A stretch of DNA of 64,000 nt from an uncultured delta proteobacterium. GTDB taxonomy: Bacteria > Myxococcota_A > UBA9160 > JAFDET01. How positions within the stretch are numbered: the first letter of the stretch is position 1; every line of letters starts with the position of its first letter. The stretch lies in assembly GCA_947259215.1 (NCBI GenBank), contig CAMYLJ010000009.1, forward strand, positions 1 through 64,000, in the 5' to 3' direction. The translations under genes were made by a program, and so were the position numbers. Below the pieces are notes generated by a model that was not told the origin of the DNA, ran no database searches, and was given only the letters and a program-made list of their open reading frames with translations. Of this stretch, positions 246-18,751 are shown piece after piece.

Positions 246-1001
246 TTGATCAGCGAAGGCACACCGGCGCCCGTGTTCACGCTGAAGGACCAGTTCGGCC
301 GCGAGATCTCGCTTTCTGACTTCCGGAATCGCCAGCACGTCCTGTTGCTCTTCTACCCGCTCGACTGGACGCCCACCTGAAGCCAGGAAGTGCCCGGCGT
401 CGAGGCGCTCCTGCCGCGCTTCCGGGCCGCCCACACCCAGGTCCTGGGTGTCAGCATCGACAGCATCCACTGCCACGCCAGCTGGGCACGCGATCTCGGG
501 GGCATCTCCTTCCCGCTGCTGGCCGACTTCCAGCCGAAGGGGGCGGTGGCCCAGTCCTACGGGGTTTACCTGGCTGCTGCTGGGATCACGGACCGGGCCA
601 CGGTCCTGATCGACAGCGGTGGCAGCGTCCGCCACGCGTCGTCCGTGACGCCCGCTGGCCAGCGGGACATCGAGGAGCTGGCCGCCCTGTGCGAGCAGAT
701 GGATCGCGAGGCGGGGACGCCCACACAGCCCGCACCCGAGCCGCGGGGCCTCGGCTCCGACGCGGTGCTCTACGTGAGGAGTCACTGCGGATTCTCGCGG
801 CGGGCCCGGGTGGCCGTGGACAACGTGCACGCCCGCGGTCTCGCGGTGAGGAGCGCCAGCGACGACCCGCAGGCCCTGGACGCGCTGCGCGCCGCGAGCG
901 GCACCGAGACGGCGCCGTGCCTGGTGATCGACGGCGAGCCGCTATCCGAGTCCGACATGATCGTGCGCACCCTGGCCGAGCGCCTGGCGCCCATTCGCTG
1001 A
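246..1001 (+). CDS. Peroxiredoxin-glutaredoxin fusion, predicted selenoprotein
   Basis: A TTG start at 246 follows a good ribosome site (GGAGGTG, 234-240). The frame gives 251 residues if the in-frame TGA at 378-380 is read as selenocysteine. That TGA is residue 45, exactly the peroxidatic position of the peroxiredoxin motif PxxxTxxC (here PLDWTPTU). The thioredoxin-like fold continues undisturbed after it, with Cys76 and the usual active-site region Arg near 117. Residues about 170-251 form a glutaredoxin-like domain with a CGFS motif (Cys181). The predicted role is reduction of peroxides, with the fused domain possibly acting as reductant. A hairpin at 384-413 fits a bacterial SECIS. The first gene of island A, it lies 68 bases before a methyltransferase gene. 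The alternative is a gene broken by a nonsense mutation, which is less likely because frame and motifs are intact on both sides. Confidence 0.8.
384..413 (+). promoter_or_regulatory. Candidate bacterial SECIS hairpin
   Basis: Just after the in-frame TGA (378-380), CAGGA (384-388) pairs with TCCTG (409-413) and GTGCC (390-394) pairs with GGCGC (404-408), with one bulged A at 389. The nine-base apical loop (395-403) starts about 15 bases after the TGA and has G at its second position. Bacterial SECIS elements lie within the coding sequence directly downstream of UGA with a loop at about this distance and are recognised by SelB. Folding was done by eye. Confidence 0.6.
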
Positions 1002-1069: not shown

Positions 1070-1681
1070 ATGGAACTCCGCGCGCGACTCCGCGGCCGCA
1101 CGCTCGACTGGATGATGCGGCAGATGAACGACCTGCGGCCCGAGGTCCTGGAGAGGGCCGAGGGCGACGTGCTCGAGGTGGGCTTCGGCACCGGCCTCAA
1201 CGTCCCCTTCTACCCCCCTGGAACGAAGAAGCTGGTCGGGCTCGACCCGAATCCCGCCGACGGGCTCCCAGCGCTGGAGGAGCGCGTCCGCGCCGCAACG
1301 TTCGGGGTGGAGCGGTGCGCCCTGCGCGCCGACGGCATGCTTCCCTTCGATGCCGGGCGGTTCGACACGGTCGTCACCACCTGGACCCTGTGCTCGATCG
1401 CGGACCACCGCCGCGCGCTCGACGAGATGCGCCGGGTTCTCAGGCCGGGCGGCCGCTATCTCTTCATCGAGCATGGCCGTGCGTCCGCGGAGCGGACGGC
1501 GCGCTGGCAGGATCGAGTGAACCCTCTCTGGAGGCGCCTCACGGGTGGCTGCAACATGAACCGCCCGATCGACCTCATCGTACAAGAAGGCGGGTTCGAG
1601 CTCGAAAGGCTGGCCCGCTTCCGTCACACGGGCCCTGGGCTGCTGGCCCACATGTACCGGGGTGTGGCGAAAGCCGTCTGA
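1070..1681 (+). CDS. Class I SAM-dependent methyltransferase
   Basis: 203 residues, ATG start with AGAAGGGA upstream. Motif I is VLEVGFGTGLN at residues about 35-45, followed by an acidic motif II (GLDPNP) and the post-motif LRPGGRYLFIEHG. The C-terminal part (GGCNMNRPID) resembles the small METTL7/UbiE-like methyltransferases; human METTL7 proteins methylate thiols. The substrate here is unknown. Its position directly after a selenocysteine/thiol peroxidase makes a thiol or selenol substrate an idea worth testing, but this is inference only. Confidence 0.8.
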   Translation: MELRARLRGRTLDWMMRQMNDLRPEVLERAEGDVLEVGFGTGLNVPFYPPGTKKLVGLDPNPADGLPALEERVRAATFGVERCALRADGMLPFDAGRFDTVVTTWTLCSIADHRRALDEMRRVLRPGGRYLFIEHGRASAERTARWQDRVNPLWRRLTGGCNMNRPIDLIVQEGGFELERLARFRHTGPGLLAHMYRGVAKAV

Positions 1682-4235: not shown

Positions 4236-4994
4236 CTAATCGAGCGAGCCGTCAACCTGGCAGGCGTCACCCACGCCGTCCCCGTCGCTGTCGAGCTGGT
4301 CGGGCTTCGCCGCATCGGGGCAGTTGTCGCAGGCGTCTCCGACGCCGTCCCCGTCGCCGTCCGCTTGGTCTGCATTCGCCACATCGGGGCAGTTGTCGCA
4401 GCGCTCGCCCACGCCGTCGCCGTCCGGGTCCGCCTCCGGCCGCAGATCGGCCACGTCCACCGCCAACATGGCCGTCGGGCCGGCCACCGGGAGGTCCGTG
4501 TCGGAGGCGCTCCGGTCGACCGCCACTGCGCCGTCATTCAGGATGAGCGGCTCGCAGGACGTCGGGGCGAAGGCCGGCTCCTTGTGTCCGCGACCGGGGC
4601 TCTGGCGAGTCTCGAAGGTGACGAGGAGCGTCGCGTCGGTATCGGCGGGAAGATCGCAGGCAATCTTCGTGGCGCCCTTGCCGGGCTTCTTGCTGGCGCG
4701 CTCCACGCGCACGCCGCCGACACAGGCCATCGCGATGTCTTCGACCGCTACGTTCGTCCACTCGGCCGGGAGCGTATCGAGGATGGTCACCTCCGGACCT
4801 CCCTCCGAGACGTACGTGAGGATGAACGCGTAGGTCGTGGTCTGGATATCCTTCACCTGGATCGGGTTGAGATTGTCCGCAGCGGTCGTGTCGGTCAGCA
4901 CCTTCTCCAAAGTGGCGGCGCTGGCGGGTGCGACTGCGACGCCGAGCATCGCGGCCAGCAGCAGATAGGAGGCAGGAGTCCTGAATCGTCGCAT
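4236..4994 (-). CDS. Secreted protein with thrombospondin type 3 calcium repeats
   Basis: 252 residues, ATG at 4994 with GGAGG upstream. A signal peptide ends near APASA (residues 24-28). Residues about 30-190 form an extracellular-type domain with paired cysteines, with no family recognised. The C-terminal 50 residues hold tandem repeats of the type [14 protein letters not shown], the thrombospondin type 3 pattern that binds Ca2+ through aspartates. The protein ends with the last repeat, so no sorting anchor is seen. It converges on the other secreted protein of island C. It is likely exported and calcium-stabilised; its role is unknown. Confidence 0.8.
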
Positions 4995-5407
4995 GGGGGT
5001 CCCTCCATCGCGGAGCCTCCCGCCCTCGAAAGGGCAAAGACGGCTCCACTCGGGTCTACCCCCCGTCCCGGTGCCCTCGCTTCGGCGAGTACGACCCCCT
5101 GAACTGTGTCGAACCTCACCGTCCATGCGGTCGCAACCGAGTCTCTGGCGGTCGATAAGCTCATCTCAGTGCAGCACGAGGGCAAGCTGGCTGGACTGGT
5201 CAGCAAGGGACGTCAGCGACTTCGGGCGGCGCGGGAGCTTGGCGCCGTGCTGGCTAACCCGAGCTCTCCCAAAACTCTCGTCGCGACGCGCGCGTCGGGC
5301 TCCCCGTAGATAACTGTCGCGCCAGAGATCGGGGCCTCGTTCTCGGACCCGGCCGCCTCACAGCCATGCTGCGGAAACGACCCTCACGCGCGCCCGCGTC
5401 CCCCTTC

Positions 5408-5593: not shown

Positions 5594-5638
5594 TGGAGCA
5601 CGAGACCGGATTCGAACCGGCGACCCCCACGTTGGCAA
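5594..5638 (-). repeat. 3' fragment of tRNA-Gly (att copy 3)
   Basis: 45 bases identical to the 3' part of the complete tRNA-Gly, ending in the anticodon loop. It is the junction between island C and island B, and with the tRNA at 18676-18751 it brackets the island that still has an integrase. Confidence 0.9.
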
Positions 5639-5661
5639 AGGGCCGGAAACGCAAGAAATGA
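5638..5661 (+). pseudogene. Detached integrase C-terminal codons at left end of island B
   Basis: Joining this point to the integrase frame at 18720, as would occur on excision, continues the protein as KGRKRKK and then TGA. The integrated gene instead reads ATWRSTS from tRNA antisense. The same peptide at 55-78 differs only at synonymous positions. This is therefore probably the real 3' end of the integrase gene at 17451-18740. Confidence 0.65.
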
Positions 5662-5944
5662 CGCCTGCTTGCGGCTCCGGGCCTGCGAGCGCCTGCCGGC
5701 GGCGGCGCAGCGGGGCACCGAGGACGTCTCCGCGTCTCTATACGTCTCCTACACAGAATCGCGTCAACGCTCCGAAGACGCGGGCCCCACGTGAGCTCGT
5801 GGAGGTCCCGCGGCGCCCCGATCCGTCCCCGGGCTCGGATTCACGCGGCCCGCCTGTCGGCGGGAACCGAATCGTGAGCCCTCGACCGCACGTCGGTGGA
5901 GATCGCGCCTACCCACCACCGGTTCGGTCCGAGGGGCTCCGCCC
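5639..5944. other. Left end of island B, non-coding
   Basis: Apart from the integrase-tail codons and the CGTCTC arm, no gene is supported here. The first 110 bases resemble those after att copy 1; the rest has no recognised content. Confidence 0.5.
5725..5748 (+). repeat. Phased CGTCTC repeats, left arm of island B
   Basis: CGTCTC at 5725, 5733 and 5743, with the same spacing and the same distance from the core as at 142-165. Candidate arm-type sites for the integrase of this island. Confidence 0.55.
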
Positions 5945-17450: not shown

Positions 17451-18740
17451 ATGGCCGCCAAGGTGGTGTGGTATCGCAAAGCCTGGTGGGTGCGGACGCA
17501 CCATCGGCGGAAGAAGAAGGACCGTCGCATCGGTCCCAGCAAGGCCGACAAGCGCCAGGCGGACGAGATCGCGCGCAAGATCAACGCGGCGATCGCGCTC
17601 GGCACCTTCGCCATCTCGGAGCCGGACGAGAGGCCCCTCCCCTGCCGCGCGCAGCTCGAGCGCTGGCACGCGACCTACGCGCCGACCTTCAAGCCCTCGT
17701 TCGAGCAGGAGAGCCAGCGGACGATCGAGAACCACCTGGTGCCGTTCTTCGGCGCGAAGGACCTGCGCGAGATCCGCGAGGACGACCTCCTGGCCTACAT
17801 CCGGGCGAAGCTCGAGGCTGGCCTTGCGCCGCTCACCATCCAGACGCACCTCTCGATCCTGCGGCGCGTCTTCTCGCTCGCCGTCCGCGAAGGGCTGGTG
17901 GACCGCAATCCCGCCGCGCGCCTCGGCGAGCTGATGCGTCGGGTCGGTCGCCGGGCCGCCGCCGAGGCGCCGTCGGTGGACAGCTGGACCCGGGAGGAGG
18001 TGGCGTCGCTGCTCGCCGTGGCCCGCGAGTCCGAGCCGCGGTTCCACGCGGCGCTGGTCTTCCTCTTCTCGACCGGCGTCCGCCGCGGCGAGCTCCTGGG
18101 CCTCAAGTGGGCGGACGTGGACTTCGAGCGCCGGCGGATCCACGTGCGCCGGGCCTGGGTGCGGGGCGAGGTCACGAGCCCGAAGAGCGGCCGGGGGCGA
18201 TTCCTGGCCATGCCGCCGGGCCTGGGATCACTCTTGATCGATCTCCTGGCCGAGCGGCGCCGCGAGGGCCTCCAGCGCGGCTGGCCGGACGTGCCCGAGT
18301 GGGTCTTCCCCGCCAAGACGGGCGGGCCGCTCGACGCCCGGAACTTCGAACGCGCCTGGCTGCGTGTGCGCCGGCGCGCCGCCAAACGCAGTGTCCGTCC
18401 CCTGAAGCTCCACTGCACGCGCCACACCTGGGCGAGCCTGGCGCTGGCCTCGGGCAAGAGTGTGCGCTGGGTCGCCGACCAGCTCGGGCACGCATCGCCC
18501 ACATTGACCCTGAAAACGTACGCGCACGCGCTGCGAGAAGAAGAAATCGACCTCGGTTTCGCCGATTTCGGAGCGGAGGGCGTCGCCGGACGTCTCTATA
18601 CGTCTCCGACAACCGGGAGCGACGCCGACAACGAAAACGCCCCCGACGCAACTCGCCGAGGGCGCTTCGGAATCCTGGAGCACGAGACCGGATTCGAACC
18701 GGCGACCCCCACGTTGGCAACGTGGCGCTCTACCAGCTGA
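17451..18740 (+). CDS. int: Tyrosine integrase of island B
   Basis: 429 residues from ATG 17451. An N-terminal arm-binding part (KVVWYRKAWWVRTHHR), a SAM-like core-binding domain (about 85-170) and the catalytic domain follow. Catalytic residues are visible: Arg in FSTGVRRGELLGLKW, HxxR in HCTRHTWASLAL, GH in QLGHASPTLTLKTY and the nucleophile Tyr in TYAHAL. It lies next to the intact tRNA-Gly, as expected for tRNA-targeting integrases. The frame runs past the catalytic domain, through the tRNA terminator and 65 bases into the antisense of the tRNA, ending at 18740. In the excised circle the last residues would instead be KGRKRKK (codons at 5638-5661). Confidence 0.9.
   Translation: MAAKVVWYRKAWWVRTHHRRKKKDRRIGPSKADKRQADEIARKINAAIALGTFAISEPDERPLPCRAQLERWHATYAPTFKPSFEQESQRTIENHLVPFFGAKDLREIREDDLLAYIRAKLEAGLAPLTIQTHLSILRRVFSLAVREGLVDRNPAARLGELMRRVGRRAAAEAPSVDSWTREEVASLLAVARESEPRFHAALVFLFSTGVRRGELLGLKWADVDFERRRIHVRRAWVRGEVTSPKSGRGRFLAMPPGLGSLLIDLLAERRREGLQRGWPDVPEWVFPAKTGGPLDARNFERAWLRVRRRAAKRSVRPLKLHCTRHTWASLALASGKSVRWVADQLGHASPTLTLKTYAHALREEEIDLGFADFGAEGVAGRLYTSPTTGSDADNENAPDATRRGRFGILEHETGFEPATPTLATWRSTS
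18581..18606 (+). repeat. Phased CGTCTC repeats, right arm of island B
   Basis: CGTCGC at 18581, CGTCTC at 18591 and CGTCTC at 18601 are spaced exactly ten bases, 85 bases before the tRNA end. They lie inside the 3' part of the integrase frame and match the right arm of island A. Candidate integrase arm sites. Confidence 0.55.
18631..18665 (-). terminator. tRNA-Gly terminator
   Basis: Downstream of the tRNA on the minus strand, GCGCCCTCGGC pairs imperfectly with GTCGGGGGCG and is followed by TTTTCG. A near-identical copy lies at 2388-2420. Confidence 0.6.
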
Positions 18741-18751
18741 GCTACTCGTGC
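18676..18751 (-). tRNA. tRNA-Gly(GCC)
   Basis: 76 bases including the encoded CCA. The acceptor stem GCACGAG/CTCGTGC, D-arm (AGCTCAGCTGGTAGAGC), anticodon stem CCACG/CGTGG around TTGCCAA, and T-arm GGTTCGAATCC are all intact. Anticodon GCC reads GGC and GGT. It is the insertion site of the tandem islands; its last 45 bases are repeated at 11-55, 2431-2479 and 5594-5638. It stays functional because each island restores the 3' end. Confidence 0.97.

Follow-up and report, generated by a model that had tools for sequence, protein, structure and literature searches.

The window analyzed here, a stretch of 64,000 nucleotides, carries near its start a gene whose reading frame raises the question of whether an internal TGA is a stop or a codon for an amino acid and, if it is decoded, what sort of enzyme results. 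On the plus strand, the frame from position 246 to 998 comprises 251 codons with a single interruption, an in-frame TGA at 378 to 380, as read from the window sequence, and the gene closes with a TGA stop at 999 to 1001. The start codon of the window copy is TTG (246), aligned mostly with ATG in relatives, and a ribosome-binding site, ggaggtga, was read directly from the sequence at 234 to 241 on the same strand, about 5 bases 5' of the start. Gene calling with the standard code gave an ORF from GTG at 390 to 1001, just as an earlier note on this DNA had predicted of routine calling, and ordinary annotation of 246 to 1001 would thus yield a truncated protein without the active site.

On the basis of the frame and the alignments, we favor, at a probability of roughly 0.8, the reading that the gene (246 to 1001) encodes a protein of 251 residues that may act as a glutathione-dependent selenoperoxidase, in which a selenocysteine at residue 45 (Sec45) of an AhpE-type peroxiredoxin (Prx) would be recycled through C181 of a fused domain and glutathione (GSH), in a host with complete selenocysteine (Sec) machinery.

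Two domains across an in-frame TGA

Pfam searches carried across the TGA matched AhpC-TSA at residues 5 to 130 (E value of 4e-33) and Glutaredoxin at residues 174 to 231 (E value of 1e-7). These matches on both sides bear out the earlier proposals that the coding sequence stays intact beyond the TGA through a peroxiredoxin and a C-terminal glutaredoxin-like domain and that the two are fused, both domains being found in 27 of the 28 homologues collected from Myxococcota-type and Planctomycetota genomes; the other one was cut by a contig end.

The peroxiredoxin domain (residues 1 to 155, positions 246 to 710) is of the one-Cys AhpE type. Its catalytic set of P38, T42, residue 45, and R117 was invariant in the family alignment, with both the PxxxTxx(C/U) motif and the catalytic Arg present. 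When a profile of 16 members was compared with the PDB, the best match was Mycobacterium tuberculosis AhpE (E value of 8e-35). An AlphaFold model (mean pLDDT of 84, with low confidence at residues 70 to 100) likewise placed AhpE at the top of the fold search with Foldseek and VIA-align (Z of 20.6 and rmsd of 2.1 over 150 residues); the fold matches listed for the full model reflect mostly the peroxiredoxin domain and barely sample the glutaredoxin domain. No conserved resolving Cys was found in the peroxiredoxin domain across the family, a Cys near residue 76 alternating with Ser. None of the NCBIfam models reached its cut-off on the fusion protein, the PrxU model NF040737 reaching 72 bits where its cut-off is 270. 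The earlier note had missed the AhpE type of the peroxiredoxin part, and also that the fusion was found in the Sec form only.

A poorly conserved linker in the alignments (residues 156 to 171, positions 711 to 758) leads into a thioredoxin-fold domain that is glutaredoxin/GST_N-like (residues 172 to 251, positions 759 to 998). The window protein scored 32.3 bits on Pfam Glutaredoxin (PF00462), above the gathering threshold of 22.9; across the family this model matched 15 of 16 members and GST_N_3 matched 12 of 16, with GST_N_2 also matching. The structure model of the domain exhibited the order beta-alpha-beta-alpha-beta-beta-alpha, with pLDDT mostly above 85. Its active-site motif in the family is C-x-x-S (once C-x-x-C), occurring as CGFS, CPFS, CMFS, CLFS, and CRFC. 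Since the motif drifts in this way, with neither the G nor the F conserved, and since the model for the CGFS class (Grx4, TIGR00365), whose cut-off is 117 bits, gave a score of 15, assignment to the CGFS-class glutaredoxins was rejected, and with it the earlier description of a monothiol-type CGFS domain. C181 (positions 786 to 788) was invariant in all full-length members and is the family's only invariant Cys; at C225, several members have Ala or Val. This pattern suggests that C181 takes part in the chemistry and makes it the proposed partner of Sec45.

In the proposed mechanism, the Sec45 selenolate would attack H2O2 or an organic hydroperoxide and become a selenenic acid; for this initial oxidation, the chemistry of the peroxiredoxin family gives good support. 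Resolution of the selenenic acid would fall either to glutathione or to C181, since a conserved resolving Cys is lacking in the peroxiredoxin domain. By the first route, glutathione would form Sec-SG, and C181 of the fused domain would remove it in a monothiol glutaredoxin reaction; by the second, C181 would resolve the selenenic acid directly, and the resulting Se-S bridge between Sec45 and C181 would be opened by GSH. The invariance of C181 suggests its role in Sec45 recycling, and the host's capacity to make GSH, in that it encodes glutathione synthetase, is consistent with GSH as the final donor. The whole chain would then combine in one polypeptide the parts played by AhpE and mycoredoxin-1: in M. 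tuberculosis, AhpE is oxidized to a sulfenic acid, which mycoredoxin-1 reduces either directly or after formation of a mixed disulfide with mycothiol (PMC4360819).

It is rather unlikely that the Sec reading is right and that the fused domain is nevertheless not the reductant of Sec45, being instead a GST_N-like or Fe-S/glutathione-binding domain for substrate recognition, dimerization, or sensing, with free thioredoxin or glutathione reducing Sec45. Sec peroxidases are often able to use thiols without a mediator, and the matches to the GST_N_3 and GST_N_2 models and the drift of the active-site motif would suit such a role. However, the invariance of C181 when the other cysteines vary argues against it, as does the fact that glutaredoxin-peroxiredoxin fusions are known redox couples, one of which, the hybrid Prx5 of PDB entry 1nm3, was among the fold matches.

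Codon 45 in homologues and relatives

The TGA at 378 to 380 falls on residue 45 in the sequence PLDWTPTU, so that, as the earlier note had proposed, it occupies the place of the catalytic Cys of PxxxTxxC; the frame and the homologues both confirmed this. The codon aligned with residue 45 was TGA in all 28 homologues, with the frames intact on both sides, and the recurrence of TGA at exactly this codon is beyond chance. Carriers of the fusion gene numbered 15 among 98 related genomes (host included) and 26 among 379 genomes sampled evenly from the phylum, and two further carriers were Planctomycetota records. Among 14 single-domain peroxiredoxin relatives compared, 12 had Cys at the aligned position (including L078 to L081, L031, L051, and L052), and the remaining two, which were more distant, had TGA (L032 and the host's own L099). 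Cys or TGA in homologues at position 45 was what the earlier note had named as support for its reading. No two-domain member with Cys in place of Sec was found among the homologues, and in the tree the Sec fusions grouped together with moderate support (89/85).

The residue right after the UGA was an invariant Ser in the 28 homologues, and its codon was AGY in every case, compared with 45% of other Ser codons. The context UGAU is thereby avoided; UGAU is a strong stop context. Taken as a whole, the alignments support the predicted decoding of the UGA as Sec, which would be the peroxidatic residue of an AhpE-type peroxiredoxin fused to a glutaredoxin/GST_N-like domain.

It is very improbable that the TGA is a true stop, the gene being a pseudogene, the product of a sequencing error, or one of 203 residues from GTG 390. 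Standard gene calling does give exactly that ORF, but P38 and T42 of the catalytic set are encoded ahead of the TGA, the residues N-terminal to it are as well conserved in the fusion homologues as those after it, and the same codon is TGA in homologues from two phyla. The host, moreover, has in-frame TGA codons at other active sites (SelD and a PrxQ-type peroxiredoxin).

Two single-domain proteins were observed in passing. L032 (G067:C10) resembles AhpE and has TGA as its peroxidatic codon (FTGG-U-T); it sits on a long branch outside the fusion clade and may have gained Sec independently. The second peroxiredoxin of the host, L099 (G000:C14:75800-78500, about 968 to 1408; G000:C14:76770), is of the PrxQ/BCP type and has TGA at the peroxidatic Cys (FTPG-U-T); L038 and L041 are related forms.

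Selenocysteine machinery and a putative SECIS hairpin

The host genome was found to hold the counterparts of selA, selB, selC, and selD whose presence the earlier note had set as a check. SelA was matched with an E value of 6e-136, SelB was matched in its C-terminal domain, and a tRNA-Sec with anticodon tca (UCA) scored 73.7 bits. SelD is of the Sec type: an in-frame TGA also interrupts its N-terminal active-site motif, PAGGUARKLG (L003, G000:C5, near 1501), suggesting that the selenophosphate synthetase of the host is probably a selenoprotein itself. With this machinery, the TGA in all of the fusions, and the Cys in most single-domain relatives, the earlier placing of Sec at the peroxidatic position was upheld.

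SelA was found in all 26 carrier genomes tested. In the order, the 14 carriers other than the host all had a tRNA-Sec hit that exceeded the gathering score, those of G011 and G036 being marginal. A search for SelB in 15 carriers found none in three of them (G011, G023, and G048); these are incomplete MAGs, and their lack of SelB may reflect incompleteness. As SelB was present in 12 of 15 carriers and in 78 of 98 genomes overall in the order-level set, it does not separate carriers from noncarriers, and its co-occurrence alone is no evidence.

The UGA is followed in the family by a putative bacterial SECIS hairpin, typically CAGCGC-UGGAA-GCGCUG, with its loop about 19 to 20 nt 3' of the UGA. 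The bacterial SECIS model of PMC13188914 has a loop of 3 to 9 nt with a G in its first two positions, 16 to 37 nt from the UGA. With a simplified version of this model and an MFE at or below -7.5, 19 of the 28 members passed, versus 3.5 expected from synonymous shuffles. Compensatory changes were also in excess: 10 doubly changed cells were counted, versus 2.6 in shuffles (0 of 500 shuffles reached 10), and among these were A-U pairs turned into U-A (five members) and C-G pairs turned into A-U or G-C. The covariation score of the hairpin was 0.211, versus at most 0.113 for slid structures. Codon choice was biased toward keeping the hairpin, with GCG at +9 in 22 of 25 members (P = 7e-8) and further bias to GCG at +6 and CTG at +7, these P values ignoring relatedness.

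In the window copy the apical hairpin, GGCGU-CGAG-GCGCU (positions 396 to 409, plus strand), is weak. The distance from the UGA to the start of its loop is 20 nt, and the geometry and the G are present, but its 5-bp, bulge-free stem (-4.5 kcal/mol) was no better than that of synonymous shuffles. The 54 nt from 372 to 425, beginning six bases before the UGA, folded better than dinucleotide shuffles (z of -2.4). The closest relatives of the window copy, L017 and L018, have a shifted, weaker hairpin as well.

Sequence comparison by itself does not reveal the identity of the inserted residue, but a reading of the UGA as Trp, Gly, or Cys rather than Sec is hardly credible, given that TGA is an ordinary stop in other places read (999 to 1001 and, for a methyltransferase gene, 1679 to 1681), that the host has tRNA-Sec, SelA, SelB, and SelD, that a conserved hairpin follows the UGA, and that the aligned residue is Cys in most relatives.

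Known systems and other features of the window

The hybrid Prx5 of Haemophilus influenzae (1nm3) likewise has an N-terminal peroxiredoxin and a C-terminal glutaredoxin in one chain and stood lower among the fold matches. Its peroxiredoxin is of the Prx5 type with Cys, whereas that of the window protein is closest to AhpE by sequence and fold and has Sec, and the glutaredoxin motif of the window protein is divergent. The monothiol CGFS glutaredoxins (Grx4/Grx5) share the glutaredoxin fold and the letters CGFS with the window copy, but the score and the variable G and F reported above set the window protein apart from them. AhpE (Rv2238c) of M. tuberculosis, the best match in both sequence and fold, resembles it in having a single peroxidatic residue and a glutaredoxin-like partner (PMC4360819), but it has Cys rather than Sec, no fused domain, and mycothiol rather than the glutathione presumed here. 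The TxxU selenoprotein peroxiredoxins (PrxU of Eubacterium acidaminophilum and those of marine metagenomes) have Sec in PxxxTxxU (PMC2398784 and PMC13188914) but consist of a single peroxiredoxin domain, and the PrxU model falls far short on the window protein.

In the portions of these two sources available, Prx (TxxU) and Grx (UxxC) are separate entries in a table of prokaryotic selenoproteins from 2026, and the fusions named there differ from this one (PMC13188914), a marine survey reports a selenoprotein peroxiredoxin fused to a PP2C phosphatase (PMC2398784), and neither mentions a glutaredoxin fusion of a selenoprotein peroxiredoxin. The open-licence literature yielded no published peroxiredoxin-glutaredoxin selenoprotein and no AhpE with Sec. 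Sec peroxiredoxins and peroxiredoxin-glutaredoxin hybrids are thus each known, and no published case was found of an AhpE-type Sec peroxiredoxin fused to a glutaredoxin. To that extent the earlier impression that the combination looked new holds, without the CGFS class and the tRNA island that had been part of it.

We put at about even odds the broader proposal that these proteins form a new family of selenoproteins, self-contained selenoperoxidases driven by glutathione whose fusion requires Sec (in Myxococcota-type genomes and Planctomycetota; always Sec, never Cys) and which would be a bacterial functional counterpart of the Sec glutathione peroxidases. The fusion would add a new domain architecture to the catalog of prokaryotic selenoproteins, and with Sec and the fused glutaredoxin together in every member found, the question of why Sec is used and not Cys becomes testable in one chain.

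No conserved gene neighbors were found around 19 copies of the fusion gene, and hence no operon argument can be made. In the window, a Methyltransf_11 gene (1070 to 1681, plus strand) directly follows the selenoprotein gene; it is not kept as a neighbor at other loci.

The small tRNA island of the earlier note did not materialize, as ARAGORN identified one tRNA-Gly in the window (18676 to 18751) and at the window start there is no more than a 3' piece of a tRNA. The 3' portion of tRNA-Gly(GCC), together with flanking bases, occurs in four copies, at 1 to 55, 2421 to 2475, 5594 to 5756, and 18666 to 18751, and the tRNA is complete only at 18676 to 18751. A diverged repeat of 163 bases (88%) is shared by the first and third copies, and the start of the contig falls within the first; the copies could be scars of integration or a repeat derived from a tRNA. 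On the minus strand, an ORF at 4239 to 5003 encodes a thrombospondin type 3 (Ca-binding) repeat, with a 69-base tandem repeat (4260 to 4397) at its 3' end.
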